A program made the position numbers and the translations under genes. A stretch of DNA of 64,000 nucleotides from Kribbella antibiotica (GTDB lineage Bacteria; Actinomycetota; Actinomycetes; Propionibacteriales; Kribbellaceae), in contig NZ_SMKX01000016.1 of assembly GCF_004349055.1 (NCBI RefSeq), positions 1-64,000 on the forward strand. The letters run 5' to 3'. The first letter of the stretch is position 1; each line of letters starts with the position of its first letter. Shown here piece after piece: positions 10,456 to 56,045 of this stretch. Under the pieces are notes generated by a model that saw only the letters and a program-made list of their open reading frames with translations, made no database searches and was not told where the DNA came from.

Positions 10456-10465
10456 CTCCTACCTT

Positions 10466-11653: not shown

Positions 11654-11671
11654 GATCAGGCTCCCCGTCCC

Positions 11672-12628: not shown

Positions 12629-12838
12629 TTACTTGTCCATTGCTTCGATCAGGCTGTTCGGACGCATGTCCGTCCAGTTCTGGTCGACGTAGTCCAGGCA
12701 GGCCTGCTTGTCGGCCTGGCCGAACACGACGGTCCAGCCGGCCGGCACCTCGGCGAAGGCCGGCCACAGCGAGTGCTGTCCCTCGTCGTTCACCAGCACG
12801 AAGAACGGCTTGTCGTCACGATCGAACGGATTGGACAT
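12629..12838 (-). CDS. mbtH: MbtH-like protein
   Basis: A 69-residue MbtH-family protein, the small partner that binds NRPS adenylation domains and helps their folding and activity. The signature is clear: NPFDRDD near the start, [37 protein letters not shown], and the ending [10 protein letters not shown]. It overlaps the end of NRPS3 by one base (TGATG), showing translational coupling to the synthetases it serves. The single copy probably serves all ten adenylation domains and the free-standing A-T protein. Confidence 0.95.
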
Positions 12839-15800
12839 CAGAGGTTTCCTTCCGAATGCGGTTTCTGCAAAAGCCCGGCGAGGATCGAGCCGATCTCCGC
12901 CAGGGGTTCTGGATTCATCATTTCGTCGTGACCGCAGTCGATCGCCTGATGGATCACGCTCCCGGTCACGTACTCTTCCCAGGCCTCGAAGCCGACCGAT
13001 CCGGCCGGCCGGCCGCGCCCAGCGGTCAGCACCACGAGGTCACCGCCGAACACACCGTCGGTGACCTCCTGGGCAAAGGTCCAGTTGTTCAGGTAGATGT
13101 CGACGAACGCGGCGATCCGGTCCTTCCCGACCCCTGTCACCTCGCTGCCCTGCAGCAGCACCCGTTCCTCGATGTCGTCGCGCCTCAGTTCGGTGCCGTC
13201 GGTCCGTGCGTCGCCCAAACTCTCGGCGATCGCTTGCAGGACAGCCTGTTCGGTCGGGCGCGTCTCGGTGGCGGGCTCGCGGTGCGGATAGTTGTCCAGG
13301 ACAACAAGTAGCTCCACCTGCTCGCCCTGGCGCTGCAGCTCGACAGCCAACTGGTGCGCGATCTTCCCACCGAACGACCAACCGACGAGCCGGTACGGGC
13401 CATGCGGCTGCTGCTGCCTGAGTCGGTCCGCGTACTCGGCCACCATCTCGGCCGTCGTCCGCGGCAGTTCGGTGTCCGCAGCCAGACCGCGGGACTGGAT
13501 GCCGAACAGCCGGGCATCCTGACCGAGCTGACTGACCAGGCCTGCGTAGCACCAGCTCAGGCCACCGCCAGGGTGAACGCAGAAGACGATCGGCCCGGCG
13601 CCCGCCGTTTGCAGCGGGAGGATCATCTGCAGTCCGTCGTCACCGATCTCCCTGCTGCTGTCCAACCGTTTGGTCAGCTGGGCGACCGTCGGCGCGGCGA
13701 ACAGGTCGCGAACAGACAGGTCGACACCAAGGACAGTCCGGATCCTCGTCACCAACCGGATGCCGAGCAGCGAGTAGCCGCCGAGATCGAAGAACGACTC
13801 GTCCAGACGAACCTCAGACCGGCCCAGCACCTCAGCGAACAGATCACACAGCACGCGCTCCTGCGGTGTCCACGGATGGCGTCGCACAGCCGGTACGGCG
13901 GTGTCCGGCGTCGGCAGCAGCTGCCGATCCAGCCGGCCGTTCAACTGCAGTGGCAGCTCGTCGAGCGTCACCAGCGCAGTCGGAATCAACATCTCCGGCA
14001 GCACGCTGGCGACGAACTCCCGCAGGTCCGCGAGGATCGGCGTCCGGCCTGCGGCAGGGACGACGTACCCGATCAAGCGTTCGGCACCCGCCTGATCTGC
14101 CCGTACGGCGATCGCCGCGCGGGCCACGGTCGGGTGGCGCTGGAGTGTCGACTCGATCTTGGCGGGCTCGATCCGGTGGCCGCGAAGCCTGACCACGTCA
14201 TCGGTCCGGCCGACCACCGTCAGCCGGCCGGCGTCGTCGTACCGGGCCAGCTCGCCGGTCCGATACATCCGATCGCCCGGCCGGCCGTAGGGGTTGGCGA
14301 CAAAGCGTTCCGCAGTCAGTCCGGCTCGGTCCAGATAGCCCCGCGCCAGGTTCGGTCCAGCAGCGTAGACCTCACCCACCACGCCAGACGGAACCGGTGC
14401 GAGGTTGCTGTCCAACACCAGCTCCCCGGTACGACGCCCAGTCAGCTCCGGCCGAATGGCGTCGTACACAGGCAGTCCAGACCACGCACCGTGCTCGCTC
14501 ACCACCGCGTCCGGAGCCTCGACCGAGTCCACCGTGTAGACGATCGCGGCAACCTGACGCGGCGACAGCGACTCGTTCAGCGAGTCGGCCGAGTAGTCGT
14601 CAAGGTCGATCTCATCCAGAATCAGCACCTGCTCAGCAGCACCCGGTACGGCGAACTCGCTGTCGACCGTGGTCACCGCGAGCACCGGCTGGGAGTTGTC
14701 GAAGACCGTCTCGATCCAGCGGAACGGACGCTCCGGGTCGACCGGAATGACCACGCTGCCGGCCTTCAGCACCGCAAGGGTCGCAATCGCCAACTCGGAA
14801 GAATGCGGCATGACCACAGCGACCGGTGACTCAGCCCCGGCGCCTTCTTCGATCAACCGGTGCGCCAACTGGTTGGCCCGGCGGTCGAGCTCGGTGTAGG
14901 TCAGCAGCTCCCATCCGGCCACCACCTCGTCCGGTGTCTCCCGAGCCAGCGCTTCGAACCGCTCCGGCAGCGTGCCACCACAGGGCTCGGCGGCAACGCC
15001 CAGCGCCCGCTCGCGCTCGACCGGCTCCAGGACGTCTACCCGACTGACCAGGGTCTCCGGGTCCGCGGCGAACGCTTCAAGCACCCGGACCAACCGCGTG
15101 AGCACGCGGTCGGCGTACTGCTGATCGAAGAGGTCCGGCCGATACCCCAGCCGCAGACGCAGCTCGTCCTGCGGAATCACCAGCAGGGTCAGCGGATAGT
15201 GGGTGGCGTCGCGCATCCGCACGTCGACGAACCGCAGGTCGTGGCCGAGATCCCAGCCGCTGTCCGGACCGAGCGGGTAGTTCTCGAACACCATGTCGGT
15301 GTCGAAAAGATCCCCCGCCCCAGCCGCCTGCTGAATCTCGGTCAGCCCGAGGTACTGATGCGCGCCAAGGTTCGTCTGCTGTCCCTGGGTGCTGTCCAGC
15401 AGTTCACCCAACGAAGCCGCCGGGTCGAGCCGGACCCGCGCCGGCAGCGTGTTGACGAACAATCCGATCATTGCCTCGACACCGGTCAGATCCGAGGGCC
15501 GACCGGACACCGTGATGCCCAGAACCACGTCGTCGCGACCGGTCAGCCGTCCCATCACGATCGCCCACGCCGCTTGCAGCACGGTGTTCAGCGTGACCTC
15601 GCGACTGCGGGCCAAGCTGGTCAGCCGGGCGACCAGGCCGTCGTCGAGGACCCGTGTGACCTCTTCCGGCACCATCGGTTCACGCACCGGGTCAGGCAGC
15701 GCGATCATCGTCGGCCCATCGAGCCCGGCGAGCGCGTCGCGCCAGCGCTGCCGTCCATCTTCCCGATCCTGTGCCGCCACCCAGGTCAGATAGTCCCGGT

Positions 15801-18800
15801 ACGGCGTCACCGGCGCCAGCGCTCGATCGTCGCCGGCGCTCACATATAGAGCGAAGAGTTCGCGCGCCAGGAGTGGGCTCGACCAACCGTCCAGGATCAG
15901 GTGGTGGTTGGTGACCACGAACCGGTAGCGGCCGGGCGCCAACCGGACGAGGACAAACCGGATCAACGGCGCTTGCGCCACATCGAATCGGCGGATCCGG
16001 TCAGCGTCGGTGAGCCGGTCGAGCGCCGCCTCCTGAGCGGACGGGTCCAGCCCGGACAGATCGTGCTCCTCCCACGGAAGTTCGACCTGCCGGCTGATCA
16101 CCTGGACGGGCCGCGACAGGCCGTCGTACACGAAGCTTGCGCGCAGGTTCGCGTGCCTGCGGAGCAGCGTCGCCACGGCTGCCTGTAATGCGCCGGCGTC
16201 CAACGTGCCTTCAAGATCCACGGTGAGCTGGACGAGATAGACGTCCAGCCCCTCCTCGTCGTACAGGGCATGGAACAGCAAGCCCTCTTGCAACGGAGAC
16301 AGCGGCAGCAGGTCCTCGACGTCCGGGCGACCCTGCTCGATCTTGTCGATGTCGTCCTGGCTGAGCTCGATCAGGGGCAGGTCCGAAGGTGTGAAGCCAC
16401 CCGCGCCGGTTTGCCGCGCATGCTCGACCAGACTGGTGAGAGCTTGAATCCAAGCGTCCGCAAGCTCCTGTACGGCGGCCTCGGTCAGCACCGCGTCGGC
16501 CCAGGACCAGGTCGCGCGCAGTACGCCGTCGTGGACGGCCGCGGTGATCGACAGTGCATGCGTCGCCGGAAGGTCGGGAGCCAGTGGTGTCACCGCCGCT
16601 GCTTCGGGCGCGAGTGTCCAGTCGCCGGTGTCCAGTGCTCCGGTGCGGCCGAGATAGTTGAACAGGATCTCGGGGCGGCCGAGGTCGGCGAGCACCGGGC
16701 CGGTTCGCGGATTGAGGTAGCGCAGCAGGCCGAAGCCGATGCCGTTGTCGGGCAGCGCTCGGAGCTGTTCCTTGACTCGCTTCAGCGCTTCGCCGAGGTC
16801 CTTGCCCCCGGGGTCGAGCCGGACCGGGTACAGGCTGGTGAACCAACCGACCGTGCGGGACACGTCGAGCGCCGCACCGAGATCTTCACGACCGTGGCCC
16901 TCGACCTCAACCAGGGTGGCACCGTTGCCAACGGCAACTGCCAGACCGGTCAGCAGTACGTCGTTGATCCCCGCGTGGAAGGCTGCTGGGATCTCACCCA
17001 GTAGCGGTGCGGTGAGGTCGGAGGGCAGCTCGACCGACAGCGACCGCATCTGATCCGCCCGATCGCGGGCAGGGTCGAGTGGTCGATTCCCCAGCAGGGG
17101 AACGGGTCCGGCCAGAACACTTGTCCACAACGGCAGCTCCGCAACCCGCTCCGGGGCAAGCGCCTCGGCTTCCAGAGAAGCCGCCCAGCCGCGAAGCGAA
17201 GTCCGCACCGGATCGAGCGCAACTGGGGCGCCGGCACTGACGCACTGCCAAGCCTTGGCCAGATCGGGCAACAGAATGCGCCACGAAACACCGTCAATCG
17301 CAAGGTGATGCACGACTAGCAGCACCCTGCCTGGCTGCTCGGGCCCGGCATCGAACCAGACCAGCTCGATCATCTCGCCGGCCGCCGGATCCAACCGCTC
17401 CTGCGCAGCCTCCAACTCCCCCTGCACAACCGCAGCCAGCTCGCCGGCGCCGACCGCTACCCGCCGTACTGGCGCCTCAACCGTGCCTGGCGCTCCAACG
17501 GCGAGCACAGGGTGGGTGCTTAGCCGCAGGGCGTCATGGTGGTCGATGACGGCTTGGAGGGCGTTGGTGATGTGGGTTCGCTCGAGGCCGGACGGGACCT
17601 GGAGGAGGACCCACTGGCTGAAACGATCCGCCGAGCCTGACTGCTCCGCGAGCCAGTGCATGATCGGTGTCGACGCCAGCTCACCGGCTCCGTCGTCCAC
17701 CGCATCAACCGTCGTACCGAGTTGTCCTGCCGCAACAGCGATCCCCTCGACGGTCTTGCGTTCGAAGACGATCCGCGGCGTGATCTCCAGGCCGGCAGTC
17801 CGCGCCCGGCTGACCAGCTGGATCGAGATGATGCTGTCCCCGCCCAACGCGAAGAAGCTGTCCTCGACCCCAACACGCTCGAGACCGAGCACCGCGGCGA
17901 ACAGCCCGCAGAGAATCTTCTCCTCCGGTGTCCGCGGCGCCCGTCCAGTACTCCGGAACTCCGGCGCCGGCAGCGCCCGCTGGTCAAGCTTCCCATTGGT
18001 TGTCAGCGGCAACGAGTCCAGCACGACAAAAGCCGCCGGCACCATGTACTCCGGCAGCACCTCGGCAACCACCGACCGCAGCGACGCCGGCTCAAGACCG
18101 CGACCCACCACATAGGCCACGAGCTGTCGTCCCTCACGAGCGACCACCGCAACCTGCGCGACTCCCGGGTGCCGGACCACCGCGGCCTCGACCTCACCCA
18201 GTTCGATCCGGAAGCCGCGCAGTTTCACCTGAGCATCGGAACGCCCCAGATACGCCAGCTCGCCGTCGGCAGTCCACCGCACCAAGTCACCCGTGCGATA
18301 CATCCGCCCCGCTCCGAAGGGATCAGCCACGAACCGGTCCGCGGTCAGCGCCGCCCGTCCCAGATATCCGCGAGCCAGCTGCGGACCAGCGACGTACAGC
18401 TCGCCCGTCACACCAGGCGCGACCGGCAGCAGCGACTCGTCCAGCACGTACGTCCGCAGGTTCGGCAGGCCACGCCCGATCAGGGATCCACCGCCGTCAA
18501 CCACCCGGTACGTCGTATGCACGGTCGCCTCGGTCAGCCCGTACATATTGACCAACTGCGGACCCACCTCGAGCCACCCTTGCACCCGATCGAACTGCAA
18601 CGCCTCGCCACCGAACACGACGTACCGAAGCGACGAAGGCGCCGGGGTCAGGTTGTAGAACGCCGACGGCGTCTGACTCAAGACCGTCACGCCCTCAGCG
18701 AGCACCAGGTCCCACAGCTCGGCCGGTGAACGCGTCACGTCGAACGGCACGACCACCAGGCGCCCACCGGACAGCAGTGGACCCCACAACTCCCACACCG

Positions 18801-21800
18801 AGAAGTCGAACGCGTACGAGTGGAACAGCGTCCAGACATCCTCCGGACCGACCTCGAACAGCTCCGACGTCGCGTGGAACAGACTCACCACGTTCTGGTG
18901 CGACACCACCACACCCTTGGGCGTGCCGGTCGACCCGGACGTGTAGATCACGTAGGCCGTATCGCTGCCCTCGATCGTCAGGTCCTCGGCCGCCAGATCC
19001 TCAGGCGCCAGATCCTCAGTCGACAGTCCCTCGCCGTCGAGCTCCGTGAGCACAACCGCCGGTGCCGCGTCCCGCAGCACGAAGTCGACCCGCTCGGCCG
19101 GGTAGGCCGGATCGATCGGCACATACCCAGCGCCCGCCTTCAGCACCGCGAGGACCGCAACAACCAGGTCCAGCGACCGTGGCAACACCAGTCCTACCAG
19201 GGATCCGGGCGTCACACCACGCGCCACCAAGGACCTCGCCACCTGATTGGCTCGCGCGTTCAACTCGCCGTACGTCAGCGACTCACCGGCACACACGACC
19301 GCAGTCGCCGACGGGTTGTGTCGTACCTGCGCTTCGAACAACTCCGGCAAGGTCGCCTGCGCGGCCGGCCCAGTGCTGCTGTTCCAGTCCGCCAGGATCT
19401 GCGACCGCTCAACAACATCCAGTACGTCGACCTGTCCAACCAGCGCAGCGGGTTTCGCAACGAACGTCTCCAGCACCCGGATCAGCCGTTGCAGAACGGA
19501 CTCAGCAGCCTCCGCGGTGAACAGATCAGGCCGATAGCTCAGCCGAAGCTTCAACCCGTCCTGCGGAAGCACGAGCAGGCTGAGCGGGAAGTGCGCCGCG
19601 TCCTGCCCACTCACCGCCGCGATCCGCAGGTCGGCGCCTAGCTCCCAGCCGGTCGTCGGCCCCACGGGATAGTTCTCGAACACATAGCCGGTGTCGAACA
19701 GCTCACCACCACCGGCCAACTGCTGGATCGCCGCCAATCCCAGATACTGATGGGCGATCAGATCGGCCTGTTGCTGCTGCAGCCCATCGAGTAGATCGCC
19801 GACCGACCGCGCCGGATCCAGCGCCAGCCGGACCGGCAGGGTGTTCACGAACAATCCGACCATCGACTCGACACCCGCAAGCTCCGCCGGCCGACCCGAG
19901 ACCGTAACCCCGTAAACCACCTCAGAGCGACCAGTCAGCCGGCCCAGCAGCAGCCCCCAGCCCGCCTGCAGCAAGGTATTCAACGTGATCTCGCGACCAC
20001 GCGCCACAGCGGTCAATCGTTCGGCGAGCTCGGCCGGCACCGGCACGGTCAGCTGCTCGGGCACGACCGGCAGCCGCGTCGAGTCCGGCGCCACGATCAG
20101 CGTGGGCTCCTCAACCTCGACCAAGAGCTGCCGCCAATACCCGCGCGCCTCGTCCTGGTCCTGCTCGGCAACCCACCGCAGATAGTCCCGGTACGGCGTG
20201 GCGTCGGCGAGCCCACGGTCGTCACCGCCGGTCGCGTACAGCGTGAACAGCTCACGTGCCACCAGCGGCCCCGACCAACCGTCGAGCACCAAGTGGTGGT
20301 GAGTCATCAGGAACCGGTATCGCCCATCGCTCACCCGCACCATGGTGAACCGCACCAGCGGCGCCTGACTGACGTCGAACCGCTCCCGCCGGTCCGCATT
20401 CGTCACCTGCTGGAGCTCAGCCTCGGTCACGTCGAGCTCACGCCACGGCAGTTCGACCTCGTCCAGCACCACCTGCATCGGCTCGCGCAGGCCCTCGGAG
20501 ACGAAGCCCGTCCGCAGAATCGGATGCCGCCGCAACAACGTCGCCGCAGCCGCCTTCAGCGCCTCAACGTCCAGCTCACCGACTAGATCGATCGCCAGCT
20601 GCACGACGTACACATCGACGCTCTGCTCGTCGAACAGCGCGTGGAACAACAGCCCGCCCTGCAACGGCGACAACGGCAGCACGTCGCTGACCTGGGGCCA
20701 CCGGGTCTCGAGCATCGCGAGCTCCTGCTGCGATACATCCACCAGACCGAAGTCCGACGGAGTGAACCCGCCTGCGGCTGACTGCTCGGCCAGCACGGTC
20801 ACGGCCTGGACCCAGCTCTGCGCCAGATCCCGGACCTCGTCCTCGGTGAACAAGCCTTCTGGCCAGGCCCATTGGGCACGCAGTACGCCGTCATCCACGC
20901 CAGCGTTGACAGTCAGTGCATGAGTCGCCGGAAGGTCCGGCGCAGCCTGCACAACATCGCCCGCCTCCGGGGCCAACGACCAATCACCGCTCCGCAGAGT
21001 CCCGGACCGGCCGAGGTAGTTGAACATCACCTCGGGCGTCGCGAGCTTGGCCAGCACCTCGGCCATCTCCGGGTTGAGGTAGCGGAGCACGCCAAAGCCC
21101 ACTCCCCGATCCGGTGTCATCCGCAACTGTTCCTTGATCCGCTTCAGCGCGTCGCTACCAGTCGCACCGGCAGCATCCAGCCGAACCGGGAACAGGCTGG
21201 TGAACCAACCCACCGTCCCCGACAGATCCAGCTCGCCGTCGCGGCCATGTCCTTCGACCTCGACCAGCACGCCGGTCCCACCGGTGTGGTTCCGGCTCCG
21301 CCACTCGTCGATCGCGAGCGCCAGCCCGGTCAGCAGCACGTCGTCGGCCGTCGCGTGGAACGCGGCCGGCACCTCACCCAGCAGCGCATCGGTGAGGTCC
21401 GCAGGCAGTTCCACCGACACTGAACGGACGCGTTCCAGCCGATCGATCGCCGGGTCCAACGGTCGCGCGGCGAGCGCCGTACCAGGCGTCTGAAGCGTTG
21501 CGACCCAGTGCGGCAGTTCAGCAATCCGATCCTGCTCGCGCAGGTGCCCCGCCCACCGCCGGTACGACGTTGGCACCGACGGCAGTGCCGGTATGTCGCC
21601 CGCCGCGACCGTCTGCCAGGCAGCGACCAGGTCCGGCAGCAGAATCCGCCAGGACACCCCGTCGGTCACTAGGTGATGCAGCGTAAGCAGCAACCGGCCC
21701 GATCGATCCGGTCCGCCGTCGAACCAGACCGCATCGACCATCACCCCGTCAGCCGGAGCCAGTCGCCCCGCCGCCGCATCCACCTCGGCCGACAGTTCGG

Positions 21801-24800
21801 CCAACGCCTCCAGGTCCACCCGGCGAAGCGGCGCCTCGAAACGTCCCACCGCGGGGACAGCCAAGGACCAGCCAGCACCAGTCGATCGAGCGACCAGCCG
21901 CAGTACGTCGTGATGATCGACGACGGCCTGCCAGGCCGCGGCCAGTTGATCCCGTCGCAACCCGGCTGGGACGTCGAGCAGCAACCATTGGCTGAACCGA
22001 TCCGCTGACCCGTCCTGTTCAGCCAGCCACTGCATGATCGGGGTCGCGAACAACTCGCCGGTCCCGTGATCCGGCACCAGCTCGGCTGCCTCGTCCAGCT
22101 GCACGGCAACAGCGGCCAGCCGCTCGACGGTCTTCTGCTCGAACACGTTGCGCGGCGTGATTCCGAGCCCGGCCCGGCGAGCGCGCGAGACCAGCTGGAT
22201 GGAGACGATGCTGTCGCCACCGAGCGCGAAGAAGTTGTCCTCGGCACCGACCCGATCCAGCCCCAGAACCTCGGCGAACAATCCGCACAGAAGCTCTTCC
22301 CGACTCGTCCGCGGTCCCCGCCCGCTCACCTCGGCTGCGAAGTCAGGCGCGGGCAGCGCACGCCGATCGAGCTTCCCACTCGACGTCAACGGCAACGCAT
22401 CCAGTACGACGAACGCTGCCGGAACCAGGTATTCCGGCAGCTCGGATGCAACGGCCGACCGCAGCTCGGAGATCAGCTCCTGACTGTCACCAGGCAAGGC
22501 CGGCTCGTTCGCATAAGCCTCGAGGTCCAGCGTCTCGTCGCCCGAACGCAGGCATGTCTCGGCCCAGGCCAAGCCGGTGCCGGCCGCAAGAACGACATCG
22601 AAGTTGCCCTCAGCACCGACTCCGGGCGACCAGGTTGTCGCGACCGCATAGCCGCCGGCCGCGCCGAGCTGCTGGAAAGTCTCCGGGTCCTGACCATTTC
22701 CCGGTCGGCGCGGGCCGTTCTCGTCGACGGCTCGCAGAGCGTCCAGGTCGTCGGCCAGACGGAGGTTGGGTACGCCGGAGATCCGCAACAGCTCTGGTTT
22801 CCGGTTCGCCAGATAGTTGCTCAGGCCATCGAGTTCGGTGACATCGGTTCCCCAGCGCAAGACGGGCGCACCGGCAGTTCGCCGTACCGGCTTCTTGTGG
22901 AGGACAGCGTCGTAGCGGTAGCGGGTGAGCTCGTTGTGATGGCTGCCGCGCTTGAGCTGGACATCGAGACCGGTCACGCCGGGCAGGCTCTCGGCCAGTA
23001 CGGCGAAGAAGTCGGGGTCGAGCAGAAGTTCCTTCTCTTGCAGGACTCCCTGGGCCACCCGCCGACGTCGTTCGGCCCGCGTGCCATAGCTTTCACCGTC
23101 GCGATGCTCCTCGATGCCGGCCTGCAGGGTGCGCGCGAGCCGGAGGTTCCTGACATCGCCGATCAGCACTGAGCCGCCAGGGATCACGAGGTCGACGGCC
23201 TGCCGCAGTACGTCGGCGAGGTAGCCCGCGCCGGGGAAGTACTGGACGACGGAGTTCAGCACGATGGTGTCGAAGAAGCCGGTAGGCAGCCCGTCGAAGA
23301 GGTGCGCGGCCTGCGTCCGCAGCTCGACTCGATCGGCCAGCCCGGCGTCACTGATCTGCGCTTGCAGCGCGTCGATCACCTCGGCCGACAGATCCGTACC
23401 CCAGTAGGCCTCGCAGGAACCGGCCAGCTCGGCCAGCAACAGCCCGCTGCCCACACCGATCTCGAGGACCCGGCGCGGCTGGAGTTCACGGATGCGTTCG
23501 ACGACACCGCTACGCCACTCATGCATCTCTTCCAGCGGGATCGGCCGGCCGTCGTAGCTGCTCGTCCATCCGGAGAAGTCCTCGCCCAGGGGACTGCTTC
23601 CCGCGTCTGCATAGACAGACTGGTAGACCGACTCCCAGTTGCCGAGCGCAACCCCCTCACGAGCAGCATCGCGATCCGCGCCGGTCCTCGAAGCGGGCGT
23701 CAGATAGGCGACCAACTGCTTCTCACCGGCGCCGTCGTCCCGCGCGACAACAGCAACCTCCCGTACGGCGGGGTGCCGCGCGAGCACGCCCTCGATCTCA
23801 CCCGGCTCGATCCTGAAGCCGCGAATCTTGACCTGATCGTCGACCCGGCCGGCGAACTCCAGCTCGCCGGCCAGGCTCCAGCGGACGAGATCGCCGGTCC
23901 GGTACATCCGCGTCCCAGCCGGTCCGAACGGATCGGCGACGAACCGCTCAGCGGTCAACCCGGTTCGGCCAAGGTAGCCACGGGCCAGTTGCCGACCGGC
24001 CAGATACAACTCGCCGACGACCCCCGGGAGGACAGGCTGGAGTCTGGCATCGAGCACATAGACCTGGGTGTTCCAGACCGGTGCGCCGATCGGCACCACC
24101 GTTGCCCCGGGCCGGATCTGGGCGGCGGTCACGTCGACCGCGGCCTCGGTCGGGCCGTAAAGGTTGTGCAGGGCAACGTTCGGCAGTGCCGCGTAGAAGT
24201 CCGTGACGAGCTCCGGCGGCAGCGCCTCGCCGCTGCACACCACCCGGCTCAGACCGCTGCAGTCCCGGACACCGTCAGCCTGCAGGAACGCCCGCAGCAT
24301 CGACGGAACGAAATGCGTGACGGTCACCTGCTGCTGCCGGATCAGCTCCACCAGATACGCAGGATCGCGATGTCCATCCGGTCGCGCCACCACGAGCGTC
24401 GCGCCCGTCAGCAGCGGCCAGAACAACTCCCACACCGACACGTCGAACCCGAACGGCGTCTTCTGCAACACCCGGTCCCCCGGCGCCAACTGGAACTCCC
24501 CCTGCATCCACTCCAGCCGATTCACCACCGCCGCATGCTCAACCACAACCCCCTTGGGCCGGCCGGTAGACCCCGATGTGTAGATCACGTACGCCGGGCA
24601 GGAGGGCTCAACAGGCCCCAGCAGATCATCGGCCGAGCTGGCCTCCAGCGCGATTCGGACAGCGTTCTCGTCCAGCACGGCGACCGGTTGGGCGTCGGCG
24701 AGCATGAAGTCGATGCGCTCGGCGGGATAGTCCGGATCGATCGGCAGATAGGCGGCGCCGGCCTTCAGGACCGCCAGGACGGCGACGACGAGTTCTGCGG

Positions 24801-26340
24801 AGCGTCGGAGCTTGAGCGCGACCACTGACTCGGGGCCGGCGCCGCGATCGATCAGGTGCCGGGCGAGCCGATTGGCTTGTGTGTTCAGTTCGGCGTAGGT
24901 GACGGTCGTGTCTTCGAAAACGACCGCAGTCGCATCCGGGGTCCTGGTGACTTGTGCCTCGAACAGCGCCGGGATCGAATTGGCCGAAACCTCATGCTCG
25001 GTGTCGTTCCACGTCTTGAGGACCTGCTGGAGTTCGGCCGGTTCGAGCACGTCCAGGTCGCCGACCACGACATCGGGCTGGTCCGCGACAGTGCGCAGTA
25101 CGGACTCGAAGCGTCGTACCAGAGTGTGGATTTCAGTCTCGGCGAAGAGGTCCGGCCGATAGCCCACCCGGAGGCGCAACTCGTCGCCCGGCAGGACCAG
25201 CAGGCTGATCGGGAAGTGGGCCGAGTCCTCCCCCCGAACGTCGGTGATCGTGAGGTCAGGACCGAGCTCCCAGCCACGACTCGGACCGACCGGATAGTTC
25301 TCGAAGACGAAGTCGGCGTCGAACAACTGATCCGTCCCGGCCAGCTGCAGAATCTCCGGCAGCCCGAGGTACTCGTAGCCGCTGAGCTCGGCCTGCCGCG
25401 TCTGCAGTTGCGTCAGCAGGTCGGTCAGCGACAACCGCGGATCGAGCTGGACGCGCAACGGCACGGTGTTGATGAACATGCCGACCATCGACTCGACCCC
25501 GGCGAGCTCCGCCGGACGGCCCGAGACCGTGACGCCGAGGACAACATCCTCGCGTCCCGTCAGCCGCCCGAGCACTACCGCCCAGGCGGCCTGCAAGACC
25601 GTGTTCAGTGTGGTCCCACGCTGCCTGGACAGCACCGACAGCCTACTCGTGAGCCCACTCTGCAGCGGTACGACGACCTCGGCCGGCACGATCGGCGCCC
25701 GTGCCGGATCGGCTGGTGCAAGCAACGTCGGCTCGACGCCGTCCAGCGACTCTTGCCACTGCCGCCGCGCAGCATCGCGATCCTGCGCCGCCACCCAGGC
25801 CAGATAGTTCCGGTACGGCGCAACTCGCGGCAACCCCGAGTCGTCGCCACCGGTCAGGTAGAGCGCGAACAGTTCCTGAGCCACCACCGCACCGGACCAC
25901 CCGTCCAGCACGATGTGATGGTTGGTGATCACGAACCGGAACACATCCGGTGCCAGCCGCACCAGCAGGAACCGGATGAGCGGCAGCTTGTCCATCTCGA
26001 ACCGCCGGACCCGATCCGCGGCCAGCAACCGATCAAGCTCAGCTTCGGGATCGCCGGAACCGGACAGATCGTGGTCGGTCCACGGCAGCTCGACCTCTCG
26101 CAGGACGACCTGGACCGGTTTGTCGACACCTTCGTAGGCGAAACCGGCGCGCAGGTTCGAGTGCCGGCGCAACAGCGTCGCCGCGGCCGATCGGAGCGCC
26201 GCGACATCCAGCGAGCCACGCAGCTCAACGGACAGCTGGACGACATAGACGTCCGGCCCATCCGCGTCGTACAGGGCGTGGAACAGCAGCCCGTCCTGGA
26301 GTGGGGAGAGCGGTAGGACTTCCTCGATCCGCGAGTTCAC
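12838..26340 (-). CDS. NRPS3: C-A(Ser)-nMT-T-E / C-A(Thr)-T-E / C-A(broken)-T-TE
   Basis: A 4500-residue terminal synthetase with modules 8-10. Module 8: DCL condensation domain (residues 5-425), Ser-type A domain (code by eye DVWHVSLVD) interrupted by an N-methyltransferase (about 900-1285), T (GGDS, about 1370) and E ([12 protein letters not shown]). Module 9: C, A with Thr code DFWSVGMVH, T at about 2840, E with HHLAIDG. Module 10: C with NHHLILDG (about 3340-3770), a damaged A domain (3785-4145), a carrier with GGYS (about 4190) and a thioesterase with GWSFGG (Ser near 4320) and a CGHDE histidine. It should attach N-methyl-D-Ser and D-Thr, then an in-trans-loaded last residue, and release or cyclise the chain. 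The ATG lies three bases after the NRPS2 stop; the protein ends coupled to MbtH. Confidence 0.95.
13905..14980 (-). other. Degenerate adenylation domain of NRPS3 module 10
   Basis: The A domain before the last carrier is only about 360 residues, against 500 or more normally. Motifs A1 and A2 survive ([28 protein letters not shown]). The A3 P-loop, normally YTSGSTGxPKG, reads [14 protein letters not shown]. The following A4-A5 region with the specificity pocket is missing, and the sequence resumes at A6 ([15 protein letters not shown]). A7 has TGE for TGD, A8 has [11 protein letters not shown] for a QVKIRG-type motif, and A10 has NGRLDR, losing the catalytic Lys. This domain cannot activate an amino acid; the reading frame is intact, so it may be kept as a scaffold between C and T. 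Confidence 0.9.
22490..23645 (-). other. N-methyltransferase domain inserted in the module 8 Ser adenylation domain
   Basis: Between the A8 motif and the A9/A10 end of the Ser-type A domain lies a methyltransferase of the Methyltransf_12 type usual for NRPS backbone N-methylation. SAM-binding [16 protein letters not shown] is followed by [14 protein letters not shown], and it closes with [14 protein letters not shown] and a family-typical tail. With the following E domain this predicts N-methyl-D-serine. Confidence 0.9.
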
Positions 26341-26343
26341 AGG

Positions 26344-29300
26344 TCAGCGTCCCCAGTTCTGTTCGAGCAGATCGATGCTGTCCTGGCTCAACGCGACCAG
26401 CGGCAGGTCCGACGGCGTGTGCCCACCGGCTCCCGGCCCTTGGGCCAGGTCGGTCAACACCTGGATCCACTGCTGTGCCAGCCGCCGCACTTCGTCCTCG
26501 GTGAGGAGGCCGGGAAGCCAGGACCAGGTCGCTTGCAATACGCCGTCATGAACGGCGGCGTTGATCGACAGCGCGTGCGTCGCGGGCAGATCCGGCGCGG
26601 CCGGGGTGACGGTCCCCATCTCAGCGGCCGGTGACCAGGCACCGGTCTTCAGGGCACCTGCCCGGCCGAGGTAGTTGAAGACAATCTCGGGCGCCCCGAA
26701 CCCAGCCAGTACGGCGCTGGTCGTCGGGTTGAGATAGCGCAGCAGGCCGTATCCGATGCCGTGGTCGGGAATGGCGCGCAGCTGTTCCTTGACCTGCTTG
26801 AGAGCTGTCGCAGCGTCGCCGGTCCCAGGATCCAACCGCACTGGGTACAAACTGGTGAACCAGCCAACGGTTCCCGAGAGGTCGAGCTCGCCATCCCGGC
26901 CATGTCCCTCGACATCGGCCAGGACCGGCGAACCGTTGCCAACAGCAACTGCCAGCGCCGTGAGCAGCACGTCGTCGATGCCGGCATTGAAGGCCGCCGG
27001 GACCTCACCGAGTAGCGGGACGGTGATCTCGGCCGCCAGCTCAACCGACAGCGACCGCTGCTGGTCCACCCGATCCCGGGCCGGGTCCAGCTTGCGTGCC
27101 GCCAGCAACGAGCTCGGTTCGCGCAGAATCCTTGTCCACAACGGCAACTCCGCGATCCGCTCCGGCGAACTCGCCTGCTCGCTGAGCGACTGCGCCCAGC
27201 GGCGAAGCGACGTACGTACCGGCGCCGGCGCCGGCGTGACTCCGGCCGTTACGGCCTGCCAAGCAGCCGCAAGATCCGGCAGGAGGATTCGCCACGACAC
27301 GCCGTCGATCGCCAGGTGGTTCACCACGATGAGCAACCGGCCGGACCGCGCCGGACCTGCATCCAGCCAAACGATCTCCAGCTGTACGCCGTCCGCCGGG
27401 GCCAGCCGTCCCTGAGCAGCCCACAGCTCTTGGCGGACGAGCTCAGTCAGGTCACCGGTGACCTCGACCCGACGAACTCGCTCGGAAGCCGTGACGGCTC
27501 CTTCCGGCTGAATCACCGGATCTGAGCCGGCCGCCCGAACCATCCGCAGCGCGTCATGGTGATCGAGCACCACCTGCACCGCCGGCACCAGCTGATCCAT
27601 TCGCAGCGTTGCCGGCACCTCGAACAGCACCCATTGGCAGAGCCGATCCGCTGACCCACTCTGATCGTCGAGCCAGCGCATGATCGGAGTCGCCGGGAGG
27701 CTCCCGACGCCGTCGTCCGCCACCGCGGACTCCTCATCCACCGGTACGGCGACCGCCGCCAACCCCTCGACCGTCCGGTGCTCGAAGACGCTGCGCGGGA
27801 CGATCGCCAACCCGGCCTCGCGAGCCCGGCTGACCAATTGGATCGCCAGGATGCTGTCTCCGCCGAGGGCGAAGAAGTTGTCGTCGGCACCGACCCGATC
27901 GAGGTCGAGCACCTCGGCGAACAACCTGCAGAGCAGTTCTTCGGTTGGTGTCTGCGGCGACCGGCCAGAGACCTGGCTGCCGAAATCGGGGGCAGGCAAC
28001 GCCTTCCGGTCGAGTTTCCCGTTCGCGGTCAGCGGCAGGTCGTCCAGGACCACCAAGGCGGCGGGCAGCATGTACTCCGGCAACGCACGGGCAACGAAGG
28101 CGCGGAGCTCGCCGCTGTCGACCGTCTGCTCCGCCACCGGGACGACGTACCCGATCAGCTGCCGGTCTGCAGCGCCGTCCGCACGGGCGACGACTGCCAC
28201 CTCGGCCACCGTCGGGTGGGCAGCCAGGGCTGCTTCGATCTCGCCGAGCTCGATCCGGAAACCGCGGACCTTCACCTGGTCGTCGGCCCGGCCGAGGAAC
28301 TCGATTTCGCCCGAGCTGTTCCACCGGACCACGTCACCGGTGCGGTACATCCGGACGCCGGGGGCGCCGTACGGGTCGGCGATGAAGCGGTCCGCGGTGA
28401 GGCCGGGGCGGGCCAGGTAGCCACGGGCCAACTGGGCACCCGCGATGTAGAGCTCTCCTGCGACACCTGGTGGCACTGGGCTCAGGCCTTCGTCCAGGAC
28501 GTACAGCTGGGTGTTCCAGACCGGCGAGCCGATCGTCACCGCGGCGGCGGGTGTACAGGTCGTCGCCGAGACCTCGATCGCGGCCTCGGTGGGTCCGTAG
28601 AGATTGTGCAGCGGACCGTCGAAGACGGCGTAGTACTGGTCGCGCAAGTCGTCGGTCAGCGCCTCACCACTGCAGAACACCTGCCGCAGACTCGGGCAGT
28701 TCGCAGCGCCGTTCTCGCGCAGGAACAGTCGGAGCATCGACGGGACGAAGTGCGCGATTGTCACCTGCTCGCGCTGGATCAGGTCGGCCAGATAGGCCGG
28801 ATCCTGATGCCCGCCCGGCGCGGCCACCACCAGCACCGCGCCCTCGACGAGCGGCCAGAATATCTCCCAGATCGAGATGTCGAACGTGAACGGTGTCTTC
28901 TGCAACACCCGATCGGACGGCCCGAGCCCATACCCGGCGCGCATCCAGGCCAGGCGGTTGACAATCGCCCGGTGCTCAACAGCAACCCCCTTGGGCGCCC
29001 CGGTCGAGCCGGACGTGTAGATCAGGTACGCCGGGTTGGCGGGTAGCGCTCGACCCACAAGATCTTGCCGCGGGCAACTGTTCAGCACGGACCGAACCGC
29101 AGCATCGTCCACCCGGACGACAGCTGTGGAACCAGCCTGGATTGCCGTTGCCGTGCCGGTCACGATGGCGACTGGGCGGGCATCGGCGAGGACAAAAGCA
29201 ATGCGCTCGGGCGGGTAGTCGGCGTCGATCGGCAGATAGGCTGCGCCGGTCTTGAGCACAGCGAGGATGGCAATTGTCAGTTCGGCCGACCGGGGTAGAG

Positions 29301-32300
29301 CGATCGCGACCAGCCGTTCGGGGCCGGCGCCTAGCTCGGTCAGGTGATGGGCCAGTTGGTTGGCGCGGGTGTTCAGTTCGTTGTAGGTGAGCGTTGCGCC
29401 GTCGGCCACGAGAGCAGGCGCATCCGGCGTACGGCGGACCTGTGCCTCGAACAGCTCTGGAAGCGTGGCAGCGGGGACCTCATGGTCAGTGTTGTTCCAG
29501 TCGACCAGGACCTGTTGACGTTCGGCCGGGGCGAGGACATCGATCTGGCCAACCGGCACCAGCGGGTCCTCGACGACCGCTTCGAGCACGCTGACCAACC
29601 GCCGTACCAGCAGCTCGGCGGTCGGGCGATCGAACAAGTCGGTGCTGAACTCGAGGGCAAGGTCGATGCCGTCGGCCTCCGCCCGCTCCCCCAACGAGAA
29701 CGTGAGGTCGAACTTCGCCGCACCAAGATCAGCCGACTCGCCCACGATGGTCAGGCCGGGCAGTTCCGGCCCGTTGCCCGCCGGGCTGTTGAAGCTGAGC
29801 ATGACCTGGAACAACGGATGATGCGACAGCGAGCGCACCGGATTCAGCGCCTCGACCAGGCGCTCGAACGGCAGATCCTGATGACCGAACGCGGCGAGGT
29901 CCGCCTCGCGGACCCGGTGCAGCAACTCCCGGAATGCAGGCTCGCCGGACGTGTCCGTACGCAGGACCAGCGTGTTGACGAAGAACCCGATCAGTTCATC
30001 GGTCGCCTCGTCGGTCCGCCCAGCGATCGGCGTACCGATCGGGATGTCGGTGGTCGCACTCAACCGGCTCAGCAGGACCGCGAGCCCCGCCTGGACCACC
30101 ATGAACACTGTTGCGTGCTCAGCGCGCGCCAAGTCGATGAGCCCACGATGCAGACCCGCATTGATCGCACCCGGCACGGTCTCGCCGTCATAGCTACGGA
30201 TTGCCGGGCGCGGCCGATCGGACGGCAGGTCCAGCTGCTCCGGGAGGTCGGCCAGAGTCTTCCGCCAGAACTGCAGTTGCTGGGAGGCCAGGCTGTCCGG
30301 ATCCTTCTCGTCGCCCAGCAACTCACGCTGCCACACGGCATAGTCGGCGTACTGGACGCGCAGCGGTGACCAGCTCGGCGCCCGGCCGCCGCTACGGGCC
30401 CGATACGCCTCCGCGATGTCACGCGCCAGCGGGTTCAGCGACCAGCCGTCACCAGCGATGTGATGGACGACCACCACCAGCGCGTGCTCCTCGGCGTCGA
30501 GCTGGAACAGCCGGGCACGGATCGGCAGGTCGCGACTGAGATCGAACTCGGCCCGGGCCACGGACTCGGCAACCGATGCCAGGTCGTCAGCACCGATCAT
30601 GGCCAGGGGAAGCGCCAACCGCGCGTCCGCGCCGGAAAGAATGCACTGCGCGGGCACACCGTCCACCTCGACGAAGACCGTCCGCAGGCTCTCGTGGCGG
30701 TCGAGCAGATCGTTCAGAGCAGCCTCGAGCGCAACCGGGTCCAACTCCCCCGTCAGCCGCAGGACCATCGGCACGTTGTACGCCGACCCGAGCCCTTCCA
30801 GCTGGTCGAGCAACCACAGCCGCGACTGGGCGAACGACAACGGCACCGGCTCGATCCGCGGGCGCGCGGTCAGGGCCGGACGGACCGCCGTACTGCGGCC
30901 GGCCAGCCGATCGGTCAGCCCGGCCACCGTCGGCTGCTCGAACAGGTCGCGGATCGACAGCTCCAGCCCGAGCAACCTGCGGGCCCGCGTCACCAAGCTT
31001 GCCGTCAGCAACGAGTGGCCGCCGAGCGCGAAGAAGTCGTCATCGATCCCGACCTCGGGCAGCCCCAGCACCTCTGCGAACAGCCCGGCCAGGATCTCTT
31101 CCTGCGGTGTCCGCGGTGCCCGCCGGAACTCCGCCACGGGCCGGTCCGGCGAGGGCAAAGCCTTCCGGTCGAGTTTCCCGCTGCTGGTCAGCGGAAGCTC
31201 GTCGATCACCGTCACCGTCGACGGCACCATGTATTCAGGGAGCCGATCCGTCAGGTACGACGTCAGTTCCGCGCTCACCTGCTCCGGGCTGTGCCATCTC
31301 GACCGGGGTGCCGGTGACGGCTGGACGTTGTGCCGCCGCGACGGGTGTACCGCATACAGCTGATACATCAGGGTGCCCTCGAGACCAGGCGGGATCTCGG
31401 TCGTCACGCTGAACCCGTGTGACTCCAGTAGTTCGGTCACCACTGCCAGCCGGCCGTCGAGATCGTGGACCTCGGCAACGATCTGGCCGATCAGCGGCCA
31501 GTGCTCCTCCTCGATCCCCCGGAGAACATCCAGCTCACTCTTCTCGGCATCGACCTTCAACAGATCGATCACCGTCAGCGCGTTGTCGCGGATCACCTGC
31601 GACAACGTCCGCAGCTCCACATCGACCGGCACGCTGTCCAGCCGGGTCGCCAGCAACTCACCCAGTACGCCGGCGCCAGCTTGCGCACCGTGGTCGTTGC
31701 CGATCACGCGCGCCAGCATCTGCTGCTCGGTCTCCTCGTCGGCGAACCGACCGGACAGCAGCGACATCTCCGGGTAGTAGGTGAACTCGGCCCGCCCCGC
31801 CACATCGGAGATTCCGCAGTTCGTGATCACCGCGTCGAGACCCTGCAGGTGCGCGTTCACCCGGTAGAAGTTGGCCGACTCGGGCATCGGTTCGAACGCG
31901 AACACCTGCACATCGCGCGCCACCGATCCCACGAACAGACCGAACATCCCGACGTGACCACCGACGTCGACGACGACCGCGCCGTCCCCGATCACGATGC
32001 CGCCGTGGAAATACTCCTCCTGGACGAAGATCTCGTCGTACAGGTACTCGACGTTCGATCGGTTGCGGGCGGCAACCACCATCCCGTTCGGCAGGGCATG
32101 CGTCTCGAGTCCGGCCAGGCGGCCGGCGGCCTGGAGTTCGCCGTACCGGCCGACTCCGGCCGCGGAGACCACGACGTGAGCGGACAGGCCGCCGCCGTCG
32201 GCCCGCGGTACAACTGCTGCGCTGGTCACCGCGGGGTGCTCCAGCAGGGCGGCCTCGACCTCGCCGAGCTCGATCCGGAAGCCGCGGACCTTCACCTGAC

Positions 32301-34803: not shown

Positions 34804-34807
34804 TGAG

Positions 34808-37800
34808 CTACACCTCTTCTTCGAATTCGTCGATGTCGTCCTGGGTGAGCCGCACGAGTGGCATGTCCGACGGCGTGTGACCGCCCGCGTCGGGAACCTG
34901 GGCATGACTGACGAGACCGGCCAGCGCGTCGATCCATGCCTGGGCCAATTGCTGGATCCGCTGCTCGGTGAACAGGCCCGCCGGCCAGGACCACCGCGCT
35001 CGCAGTACGCCGCCTTGCACGACCGCGTTGACGCTCAAGGCGTGAGTCGCGGGGAGATCCGGTGCGACCGGCTCAACGGCCTCCGCCGCCAAGGACCAGC
35101 CGCCGATGTCCAGGACGTCTGCCCGGCCGAGGTAGTTGAACAGGATCTGTGGCCGGTCCAGCTCGGCCAGGACCGAACGGGTCTCCGGGTTGAGATAGCG
35201 CAGCAGCCCGAACCCGACGCCGTTGTCGGGCACCGCCCGCAGCTGTTCCTTGATCCGCTTCAGCGCCGCCCCGGCCGCCTGCCCACCAGCCCGTACGGCG
35301 GCATAGCCGGCCTGCTGCGGATCCAGCCGGACCGGGTAGAGGCTGGTGAACCAGCCCACGGTGCCGGACACGTCCGACCCCAGCTCGGCCCGGCCATGAC
35401 TCTCGACATCGATCACCACGGCGGAGGTCGCGGCGCTGTGCCGCCAGCCACCCACCGCAACTGCCAAGGCAGTCAGCAGTACGTCGTCGATCCCAGCGCC
35501 GAACGTTGTCGGGACCTCCCCCAGCAGCGCCGCCGTTACATCGGCCGGTACCTCGGTCGTCCACGATCGGAGGGTGGCGAGACGATCCTGCTGCGGGTCG
35601 AGCGGACGCGCGCCCAAGGCCGGTCCAGTCTCCTTGAGAATGTCCGTCCACAACGCAAGCTCCGACACCCTTCGGTCCGAGAGCGCCTGCTCGGTCAGAA
35701 CCTCCGCCCACCGGCGGAACGACGTACCGACGGGTGCCAGGTCGACCTCGCCGGCAAGCGCTGCAACCAGGTCAGGCAGCAGAATTCGCCAGGAGACTCC
35801 ATCGACAGCAAGGTGGTGGACGACGACCAGCAGGCGGCCCGATCGGTCCGGCCCCGCGTCGAAGCGGACGACCTCGATCATCGCGCCGTTCGCGGGAGAC
35901 AGCCGGTACTGCGCGGCGTGCAACTCCTGCTCGATCACGTCGGTCAGGTCCTCGACGGCGGTCACGTCCACGCGCCGTACGTGCTCGTGACCGGCGACTG
36001 TGCCGACCGGCGGCACGGCGATACGCCAGGCCGCGTCCGGATCGGCGTGCGCGATCATCCGCAGGGCGTCGTGGTGATCGATCAGCTGTTGGACGGCCGC
36101 GGCAAGCCGGTCATCATTCAGCGTCGCTGGTACCTCCAGCAGGACGGACTGACAGAACAGGTCTGCCGATCCCTCTTGCTCGTGCAGCCAGTGCATGATC
36201 GGCGGGGCCGCAACTTCACCGACACCGATGTCCGGCACCAGCTCGGGCTGGTCCTTCAGGTCAACGGCCACGGCGGCGATTCCAGCTACGGTCTTGCGCT
36301 CGAAGACGATCCGCGGCGTGATGCCCAGACCGGCTCCGCGGGCTCGGCTCACCAGCTGGATCGAGATGATGCTGTCGCCGCCGAGGGCGAAGAAGTCGTC
36401 GTCCACCCCGACGTGGTCGAGCCCGAGCAGGCCGGCCATGAGCTCGGCGAAGATCCGTTCCTGCCAATTGCCCGGTGCGCGACCGGTCGTCGTACCGGTG
36501 AACTCTGGTGCGGGCAGGGCTTTGCGATCGAGCTTGCCGTGCGAGGTCAACGGCAACTCGTCCAGTACGACGAACGCCGCGGGCACCATGTAGTCAGGCA
36601 CGAACCCGGCCAGGTATGACCGGACCGCATCGATGTCGATCTGACCGACCAGATAAGCCGTCAGCAGGCGCTCGGCAGGACCGTCCTGCCGAGCGATCAC
36701 AGCAACCTGGTCGACGGCGGGATGGCGTGCGAGCACAGTCTCGATCTCGCCCAGCTCGATCCGGAAGCCACGAATCTTCACCTGGTCGTCAGCGCGCCCC
36801 AGGTACTCGACCTCGCCGGCCGCATTCCAGCGGACGAGATCACCGGTCCGGTACATCCGGGTTCCGGCAGCGCCGAAGGGGTCCGCAACGAAGCGCTCGG
36901 CCGTCAGCGCGGTGCGGCCGTGGTAGCCGCGAGCGAGTTGGGCACCGGCCAGGTAGAGCTCACCCGGTACGCCGACCGGGACCGGAGCAAGCCTGTCGTC
37001 CAGCACGTACAGGTTGGTGTTCCAGCCCGGCCGTCCGATCGGGATGCTGCCGTCCGGTGTGGCGTCGATCGGCTCGAGGCGCAACTCGGTGTTGCCGACG
37101 GTCGTCTCGGTCAGGCCGTACTCGTTGACGATCGCGGCGCTCGGGTTCTGTTCCCGCCAGGCGCGCAGCGATTCACCAAGCAGCTGGTCGCCACCCACGA
37201 CGAGGTCGCTGCTGGGCGAGAACTCACCCGGTACCAACGTCAGCAGCGATGCGTGAGCCGGCGTCACCTTCAGGAAGGTCGGTTGCCGCAGCCAGGCCGG
37301 AGCCGGGTCGCCGGTGAGCTCCAGGTCGGCCAGCTGCACCAGGCCGCCGCAGATCAACGGGCCGAACAGCGCGGTGATCGTGAGGTCGAACGTCACCGAC
37401 GAATGCACGAGCGAGGCCCCGGCCAGGCCGGGATAACGATCGGTTGCCCAGAGCAAGTAGTGACCGAGCGCCTTGTGGTCGATACTGACGCCCTTCGGCG
37501 TGCCGGTCGATCCCGACGTATACATCACGTACGCCGCGTTGCCGGGCCGCAGGTCACGCTCATTCAGGTCATCCGACGGGAACGCGGCAGCCAGCGCTCG
37601 ATCGAGAACCAGCACAGGTGCAGGACTGTTGGCGACGGCGGAAGCCGTGTCTGGCGTGGCCAGAACAGCAACGGGCGCTGAGTCGGTCAGCATGAAGGTG
37701 ATCCGCTGGGCGGGCAGCTCCGCATCGATCGGAACGTAGGCCGCACCGGTCTTGGTGACCGCGAGCAGAGCGACCAGCAGCTCGGTCGAGCGCGGGACGG

Positions 37801-55177: not shown

Positions 55178-55256
55178 CCGGTCTTGATCCCCCTCGAACA
55201 CTCGCCGACACGCCTGATCCGCCCGCTACCGTAATCCGGCCGGAGGTCACGAAACG
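55178..55256. promoter_or_regulatory. Divergent intergenic region between NRPS1 and the thioesterase operon
   Basis: About 79 bases separate the NRPS1 ATG from the GTG of the plus-strand thioesterase. It must hold the ribosome sites of both genes (GAGGGGG for NRPS1; GGAGG at 55242-55246 for the thioesterase) and probably overlapping promoters. No clear -35/-10 consensus or operator palindrome was recognised. The arrangement suggests joint control of both halves of the locus. Confidence 0.5.
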
Positions 55257-56045
55257 GTGAACCTCGACCGGCATATGCTCGGCCCGTCCGCTCCGCCCGA
55301 CGACCTGGAGACTCCGCTGGTGATGAACCACGTCACGTTGGTCTGCCTGCCGTTCGCCGGTGCCGGAGCCAGTGTCTTCAGCCCGTGGCGCCGGCTGCGC
55401 AAGGACCTCGACGTCCGCGCCCTCCAGCTCCCGGGCCGCGAGAACCTGATCGACGACAAACCCTGTACGACGATCAGTGCCGCGACCAATGCGTTGGCCG
55501 ACGAACTGGCCGGCAAGGTGGCCGGTGGTGACGTGGTGCTCTTCGGGCACAGTCTCGGCGCGATCCTCGCCTTCGAGCTCGCGCGGCGGATCGAGGCCGA
55601 CGGGCACTACACCCTGCGGCAACTGCTGGTCAGCGGCTCGGCCGATCCGTGGTCGGTCCGGGTGGACCGCGCGACGGGATTGTCGGACGACGAGTTCGTC
55701 GCTCAGGTTCGCAAGCTGGCCGGCTACGACCACCCGGCCCTCAGCGACCCGGAGTTGCGAGAGCTGATTTTGCCGACGTTGCGGGCCGATGTGGAGATGC
55801 ACGAGGCCTATCGGGCTGAGCCTGCTGCGCGGATCTCGGCGCCGATCACGGCCGTTCTCGGTGCTGAGGACGCGCTGGTCTCAGCCGATCAGGCCAGTGG
55901 CTGGAAGGACGCGACCTCCTCGTCGTTCGAGCTCGCCTCGACGCCTGGTGGGCACATGTACCTGACCGAGGATCCACCGGCCGCCTTCGAGGTTGTCGGG
56001 GGTCTGATCGACACCGCCCACGGCCGGCAGCGCCGTACCGGGTGA
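55257..56045 (+). CDS. Type II thioesterase
   Basis: A 262-residue alpha/beta hydrolase of the type II thioesterase family, which removes wrong or stalled acyl groups from carrier domains. The GTG start is preceded ten bases upstream by GGAGG. Visible are LVCLPFAGAGAS, LQLPGRE, the nucleophile Ser99 in FGHSLGA, Asp205 in LGAEDALVS and His233 in TPGGHMYL, a complete triad. It is the first gene of a plus-strand operon with an SDR, a free-standing A-T protein and a carbamoyltransferase. Some TEII-like proteins instead shuttle aminoacyl groups between carriers, which would suit the trans-loading need of NRPS3 module 10; sequence alone does not decide this. Confidence 0.9.
   Translation: MNLDRHMLGPSAPPDDLETPLVMNHVTLVCLPFAGAGASVFSPWRRLRKDLDVRALQLPGRENLIDDKPCTTISAATNALADELAGKVAGGDVVLFGHSLGAILAFELARRIEADGHYTLRQLLVSGSADPWSVRVDRATGLSDDEFVAQVRKLAGYDHPALSDPELRELILPTLRADVEMHEAYRAEPAARISAPITAVLGAEDALVSADQASGWKDATSSSFELASTPGGHMYLTEDPPAAFEVVGGLIDTAHGRQRRTG

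Follow-up and report, generated by a model that had tools for sequence, protein, structure and literature searches.

How is the last residue of a nonribosomal peptide supplied when the adenylation (A) domain of the last module can no longer activate an amino acid? This question is raised by a 64,000-nucleotide stretch of Kribbella antibiotica DNA, referred to here as the window, which lies on a 90 kb contig in a draft genome of 9.28 Mb and 348 contigs. Ten modules are spread over three minus-strand nonribosomal peptide synthetase (NRPS) genes in the arrangement 5 + 2 + 3, with a thioesterase (TE) at the end, and the A domain of module 10 is defective. We propose, with considerable confidence, that module 10 was once an ordinary module of condensation (C), A and carrier (T) domains whose A domain is now decaying, and that it is charged in trans by the products of a divergent operon encoding a type II thioesterase (TEII), an SDR reductase and a stand-alone A-T protein.

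The adenylation domain of module 10

NRPS A (34808..55201, minus strand) carries modules 1-5, NRPS B (26344..34905, minus strand) modules 6-7 and NRPS C (12838..26340, minus strand; an open frame of 4500 aa) modules 8, 9 and 10 together with the TE; an MbtH-like protein is encoded at 12629..12838 on the same strand. Five core motif patterns were scored, and at least four of them were matched by nine of the ten in-line A domains, including all those of NRPS A and NRPS B, while the A domain of module 10 matched one.

The first-pass annotation had described module 10 as a dead, internally deleted A domain between working C, T and TE domains, and this description stands, since the motifs were read in one open frame. 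The C domain (15007..16317; all features of module 10 lie on the minus strand) has HHLILDG intact at 15886-15906, the T domain (13663..13875), which is the proposed acceptor, has FFDLGGYSL at 13768-13794 and the terminal TE (12841..13605) has GWSFGG at 13366-13383; the active residues previously reported for these three domains (HHLILDG, GGYS, GWSFGG) were thus seen again on the translation. Between C and T lies a remnant of 365 aa at 13906..15000. Its location had been given as 13905-14980; this needs a small correction, as the remnant reaches about 15000.

Translation of the remnant shows that A1, A2 and A6 are kept, A4 and A5 are absent, and A3, A7, A8 and A10 are altered. A3 is destroyed next to a deletion junction where A4-A5 are missing (14443..14553), A7 reads YRTGEL with Glu in place of Asp (14248..14265), and A10 reads NGRLDR with Arg in place of the catalytic Lys (13924..13941), exactly as had been claimed. 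None of the features by which a functional A domain was recognised (A3, A4-A5, the A7 Asp, the A10 Lys) is present, and about 130 residues of an intact A domain (about 91 + 39) are missing after residue 3959. The Pfam AMP-binding profile was matched by the remnant with 80.6 bits over profile positions 1-185, whereas eight of the other in-line A domains scored 232.5-326.1 bits and the ninth was matched in two pieces (193.3 + 110.8 bits).

The alignment with full A domains that had been suggested earlier was run with 49 intact domains from named genomes, in which conservation reaches 90% or more in 98 columns, and it bore out the loss: the remnant keeps 70 of these columns, 18 are substituted and 10 are deleted. 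Thirteen of the 18 substituted columns fall in A3, A7, A8 and A10. Leaving aside the deleted columns, the remnant keeps a fraction of 0.80, compared with a minimum of 0.89 and a median of 0.96 for the intact domains (leave-one-out). The A domain of module 10 is therefore confirmed to be dead. Median identity of the two retained halves to intact A domains is 0.35 and 0.55, against 0.46 and 0.64 among the intact domains themselves; this drop of about 10 points in both halves fits a moderate, even decay. The third-position GC content of the remnant resembles that of the neighbouring sequence. The frame through it must stay open, because the T and TE domains lie downstream. Moreover, the C domain of module 10 (C10) is most similar to five C domains from elsewhere in the cluster (58-61% identity), and module 10 has therefore probably arisen by duplication within this cluster as a normal C-A-T module.

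The draft state of the assembly, with its many contigs, invites the suspicion that a mistake in assembly or sequencing produced the truncation, a reading to which we give almost no credence. Between 13700-15200 and the remainder of the window, the longest exact same-strand repeat measures 19 bp, and the same test on the nine other A regions gave 22-40 bp. The in-frame substitutions affect four separate motifs (A3, A7, A8 and A10), and a collapsed repeat is therefore not the expected cause; together with the 19 bp maximum, they led us to reject repeat collapse, and repeat-driven misassembly in general is unlikely. In addition, absence of the A domain is usual among the related loci described below.

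The proposed loader operon

The operon (55257-61019, plus strand) is divergent from the NRPS genes, and each of its four genes runs into the next, with overlaps of 4, 4 and 7 bp (based on start codons from a mechanical ORF list). The first gene, at 55257..56045, encodes a TEII with the motif GHSLGA, a proposed aminoacyl shuttle. SyrC/CmaE-like acyltransferases have an active-site Cys; a SyrC-type shuttle was considered and rejected on the GHSLGA motif of the TEII, SyrC being represented in this comparison by its active-site Cys.

The second gene (56042..56869) encodes the SDR reductase, for which we propose epimerisation of Thr to allo-Thr on the carrier. It scored 295.8 bits against TIGR03971, the mycofactocin-coupled SDR family, for which the cut-off is 300. 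Mycofactocin-coupled SDRs hold a non-exchangeable NAD. A cofactor of this kind would be well matched to a reaction in which a substrate is oxidised and then reduced again. The SDR is 62-71% identical to the SDRs of 24 related loci; its likening to GlobD, HmtG, WS21 and RthC follows their published descriptions.

The third gene (56866..59364) encodes the stand-alone A-T protein with an N-terminal extension (56866..57654). All five core motif patterns were matched, and the A and T domains are intact. The pocket residues, read by eye, are D F W N I G M V H, which we take to be a Thr code. Only the Pfam domains AMP-binding, AMP-binding_C and PP-binding were found in this protein. In a tree, the A domains of 31 stand-alone A-T proteins and 10 A domains of the in-line Thr type form two separate groups with a support of 100/100; this tree leaves out the named proteins EndD, GlobE and WS22. 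The A-T protein of the window belongs to the stand-alone side and three Thr A domains of its own NRPS to the other, and it was therefore not simply split off from these domains.

If module 10 were silent, being skipped or left unused by a chain that ends at module 9, the product would have nine residues. Loss of the A catalytic motifs would agree with this, but the active residues kept in C10, in the T domain of module 10 (T10) and in the TE, as well as the presence of a Thr-type stand-alone loader within the cluster, speak against it, and we regard a nine-residue product as highly improbable.

The fourth gene (59358..61019), which overlaps the A-T gene, encodes a NodU-like carbamoyltransferase. 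Among the window and the 30 related loci, carbamoyltransferase matches were found in the window and in one further locus (G736) only, there with 37% identity in the C-terminal half (joined L189-L192, 42051-42881). These two are the loci with a long dead A domain, and in both the carbamoyltransferase gene lies by the cassette. O-carbamoylation of residue 10 would be possible.

Co-occurrence of the cassette and A-less modules in related loci

A query with the A-T protein against 300 Micromonosporaceae and 246 Streptomyces genomes revealed many stand-alone A-T proteins. Thirty loci were read, 15 from each group, selected from the ranked matches to the window A-T protein, which itself has the extension; the Streptomyces loci were hand-picked as 15 out of 53 rows above 490 bits, and one genome (G713) supplied two of the Micromonosporaceae loci. 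The stretches were mostly 80 kb long (G706 64, G732 73, G911 65, G713 C40 40, G702 100 and G590 14 kb). TEII, SDR and A-T genes were found together in 24 of the 30 loci (9/15 Micromonosporaceae, 15/15 Streptomyces), in the order TEII-SDR-A-T in 23 of them and TEII-A-T-SDR in G736. The six remaining loci, all from Micromonosporaceae (G673, G713 C70, G590, G574, G634 and G442), have TEII and A-T without the SDR.

A C-T module without an A domain is present in 20 of the 24 cassette loci and in none of the six loci without the SDR. Counted by domain, a C domain is followed by T in 22 cases and by A in 89 in the cassette loci, as against 0 and 5 in the loci without the SDR. Seventy-eight control NRPS loci, which had been found by remnant peptides and are mostly about 20 kb long, while the cassette stretches mostly span 80 kb, gave 3 C-to-T, 238 C-to-A and 8 other transitions under the first of two domain model sets, and 3 C-T against 222 internal C-A-T with the second set, the one used for the cassette counts. 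Fisher's test on the control counts of the first models gives p ~2e-9, a value that ignores shared ancestry and the choice of loci. Four cassette loci without an A-less module in the stretch read count against the proposal: G706, where the contig breaks off, G500, in which the NRPS starts with T, G700, in which one A domain misses three of the five motif patterns, and G829.

The window shares the features of this group: a stand-alone Thr-type A-T protein, an adjacent SDR, an adjacent TEII, the placement in the tree, a defective acceptor and the extension. The earlier suggestion that module 10 is loaded in trans by the 56866-59364 protein is thus well supported by the intact Thr-type A-T protein, by the operon with TEII and SDR, and by the pairing with A-less modules in 20/24 loci.

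The in-line A domains of modules 2, 4 and 9 have pockets which, read by eye, we take to be Thr codes, and an in-line Thr domain, that of module 9 or another, might load T10, in which case the A-T operon would have a different task. The loading of two carriers by a single A domain has been proposed for viomycin and capreomycin, as mentioned in the accessible part of PMC8552735. Loading by an in-line domain would, however, leave the TEII-SDR-A-T operon without a target, where the related loci so regularly pair the cassette with an A-less module, and we therefore consider it very unlikely.

Neither half of the pair implies the other. A-less or truncated-A modules occur in seven of the 78 control loci; in six of the seven genomes there is no close SDR match, and in the seventh it lies on another contig. 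A dead A domain alone thus does not prove a TEII-SDR-A-T cassette. Conversely, an A-less acceptor cannot be concluded from the cassette, because the globomycin cluster has the three genes and all its modules keep their A domains, as far as the accessible text describes it (PMC9943842).

Decay of the adenylation domain

The defective modules differ in what is left between C and T. G736 has an A domain of 443 aa that matches one of five motif patterns, the window a remnant of 365 aa, and G911 a remnant of 157 aa, which also reads YRTGEL; in G909 and G822, 105-108 aa with scraps of A6-A8 (read by eye) remain, and the other 20 C-T modules have linkers of 8-62 aa. The C domain of the dead module of G736 is 25.5% identical to C10, by which a shared ancestral dead module was ruled out. 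The A domain has been lost more than once, because the dead module of G736 is not close to module 10. The NRPS of G911 (joined L251-L254, ORF 7968-29579) has an A-less module and a second one with the 157-aa remnant; with two defective modules in one NRPS, two residues would therefore need outside loading.

It had been suggested to look for other NRPSs with the same truncation. No whole-remnant match other than the remnant itself was found among the matches listed for 38 genomes of the genus, and nearly all matches in the contig scan with the remnant that yielded the 78 loci span full-length A domains; among these no orthologue of the remnant was found. Among the control loci, four named Streptomyces NRPSs (L096, L080, L077, L032) have internal A remnants of 75-176 aa, and their genomes have no close SDR match. 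The remnant of L032 reads VGRLDR at the position of the A10 Lys. In the same 38 genomes, a cassette-type stand-alone A-T protein was not found outside the genome of the window among the matches listed.

Part of the remnant may still fold. A model of remnant plus T domain, built with an alignment of the 49 intact A domains, has a mean pLDDT of 83.3 and a pTM of 0.71, and Foldseek placed NRPS modules first among its matches (DhbF, TMq 0.59; EntF, 0.63), though an alignment of intact A domains favours the A fold. The predicted fold of the retained parts as A subdomains, and the 70 of 88 conserved columns that are kept, would agree with the idea that the remnant is maintained as a needed spacer or docking surface, which is compatible with loading in trans and had been put forward as the reason for its retention. 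The related loci argue otherwise: their 22 C-T modules without a recognised A domain have a C-T gap of 8-108 aa, the remnants elsewhere vary widely in extent (as in G736 and G911), and the model is itself biased toward the A fold by its alignment. A spacer as a requirement was rejected, as related loci lack the domain, and a spacer role in the window is unlikely.

As far as our literature search reached, the decay series is new, and no literature was found on a truncated adenylation domain combined with loading in trans. The window adds an intermediate stage to the evolutionary path towards A-less NRPS modules, a stage of interest for the loss of colinearity in assembly lines and for product prediction from such clusters.

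The N-terminal extension of the A-T protein

The extension of the A-T protein resembles a C domain. A profile of ten extensions (the window and nine loci) compared with 67 C domains gave a probability of 97.0% (E 8.6e-11, 252 columns), against 5% for E domains and 0.04% for A domains; with 25 rows, the match to C domains rose to 98.7% (E 4e-16). These E-values are those of single comparisons. Column shuffles of the ten-row alignment (100 of them) gave at most 0.2% and the reversed alignment 0.1%, while nine rows without the window gave 96.7% and four rows 94.5%. HHxxxD is kept in none of 25 extensions. On this profile evidence, the extension appears to be a shrunken condensation domain that lacks HHxxxDG. 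A single-sequence model of it has a mean pLDDT of 35.9.

Among the 30 loci read, the extension is present in all 24 with the SDR and in none of the six without it; the HMM used was built from ten rows, nine of them counted among the 24 SDR loci, and 15 of the 24 lie outside the model. Some control proteins were matched weakly (26-32 bits), as expected of a relative of C domains. The A-T proteins of the loci without the SDR sit at three separate places in the tree, where some branches are weakly supported, a hint that the extension and the SDR were lost together more than once. When the extension alone served as query, 394 genomes of the class yielded a single borderline match apart from the window, and eight named genomes yielded none. 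This scarcity may reflect sensitivity or sampling, as the query with the full A-T protein found many proteins in two families.

Such N-terminal extensions are described as being without homology in a review, and the extension is reported as required in ramoplanin biosynthesis. The extensions of the enduracidin and ramoplanin proteins would be of the same kind, by analogy with the architecture of G630. No paper on a C-domain origin of the extension was found in a search that reached few subscription journals, and to that extent the C-domain profile evidence is new. A C-domain origin would give a handle on why the ramoplanin extension is required and where the SDR might bind.

Comparison with known systems

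The sources cited in this section are represented by their accessible parts. A close counterpart in architecture is enduracidin, in which module 8 has no A domain and residue 8 is L-allo-Thr; deletion of endD abolishes enduracidin (PMC13320435). EndB module 8, EndD and the TEII of enduracidin, and likewise the ramoplanin system, share with the window an extended stand-alone A-T protein, a nearby TEII and an acceptor without a working A domain (PMC13320435; PMC8949500). The enduracidin acceptor is an internal module without any A domain, whereas that of the window is the last module before the TE and has a decaying remnant. A carbamoyltransferase gene following the A-T gene occurs in the window but not in the enduracidin and ramoplanin systems, and lies outside the known system. 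The first-pass annotation had invoked ramoplanin as a parallel, and this was apt: locus G630 has 2+7+8 modules with an A-less module 8, the layout described for enduracidin (PMC13320435), and its A-T protein is 53% identical to that of the window over residues 105-823.

An SDR together with a Thr A-T protein, as in the window, is found in globomycin (GlobC/GlobD/GlobE), himastatin (HmtG/HmtF) and WS9326A (WS20/WS21/WS22), and globomycin and WS9326A also have the TEII; globomycin keeps all its A domains, whereas the acceptors of himastatin and WS9326A are described as A-less (PMC9943842). When cal22, the gene for the stand-alone Thr A-T protein, is deleted, WS9326A is no longer made and a small amount of a congener lacking residues 5-7 remains (PMC7539972). 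In rotihibin the same three genes (RthB/RthC/RthD) lie side by side, with an A-less acceptor and L-allo-Thr; this acceptor is module 2 of RthA, and the authors do not commit themselves to a role for RthC (PMC8552735).

Albicidin is similar to the window in that a nonfunctional A domain is present and complemented by a stand-alone A-T protein (PMC8949500). The albicidin and cystobactamid systems differ in their substrate and in an alpha-ANH-like domain of the A-T protein, which was not found in that of the window. In syringomycin (SyrB1/SyrB2/SyrC, SyrE module 9), too, the last module is A-less and a separate A-T protein supplies Thr that is modified on the carrier (PMC8949500). There, however, the modification is a chlorination and the shuttle is CmaE-like, whereas the window has an SDR and a TEII with a GHSLG serine motif; no halogenase was found among the scanned ORFs, which are part of those in the window.

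Proposed mechanism

In the route that we propose, the stand-alone A-T protein would activate L-Thr onto its own carrier, on which L-allo-Thr is probably formed through SDR-catalysed inversion at the beta-carbon. The TEII would then transfer the aminoacyl group from this carrier to T10, C10 would add it as the tenth residue and the TE would release the product. The product predicted from this route is a lipodecapeptide with allo-Thr, possibly carbamoylated, at position 10. No longer under selection to be catalytically active, the A domain within module 10 would decay. That a TEII can move Thr between carriers in vitro is known for LgnA (PMC8748450, accessible in part). A route from Thr to allo-Thr by an SDR on the carrier has been proposed for globomycin, himastatin and WS9326A, and the idea of on-carrier epimerisation is therefore already in print as a hypothesis in the accessible part of PMC9943842.

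A further, tentative reading, which we put forward as somewhat doubtful, is that loader and acceptor go back to two C-A-T modules whose losses complement each other: the acceptor would be losing its A domain, while the C domain of the loader would have shrunk and given up HHxxxDG. This C domain would have become a docking platform for the SDR, comparable to the X domain for P450s, so that Thr is epimerised before transfer, and the acceptor of the window would be half-way through the loss of its A domain.

Inserts break the A domains of modules 3, 6 and 8; the insert of module 6 matches an FkbM methyltransferase, and that of module 8 matches Methyltransf_12/11/25 (Pfam). The region adjoining the NRPS genes (7395-12628) encodes HutD, PhyH and TauD-type proteins and two FAD enzymes, and the nearest model of the TauD-type protein, with a score under the cut-off, is the enduracididine hydroxylase GntD.
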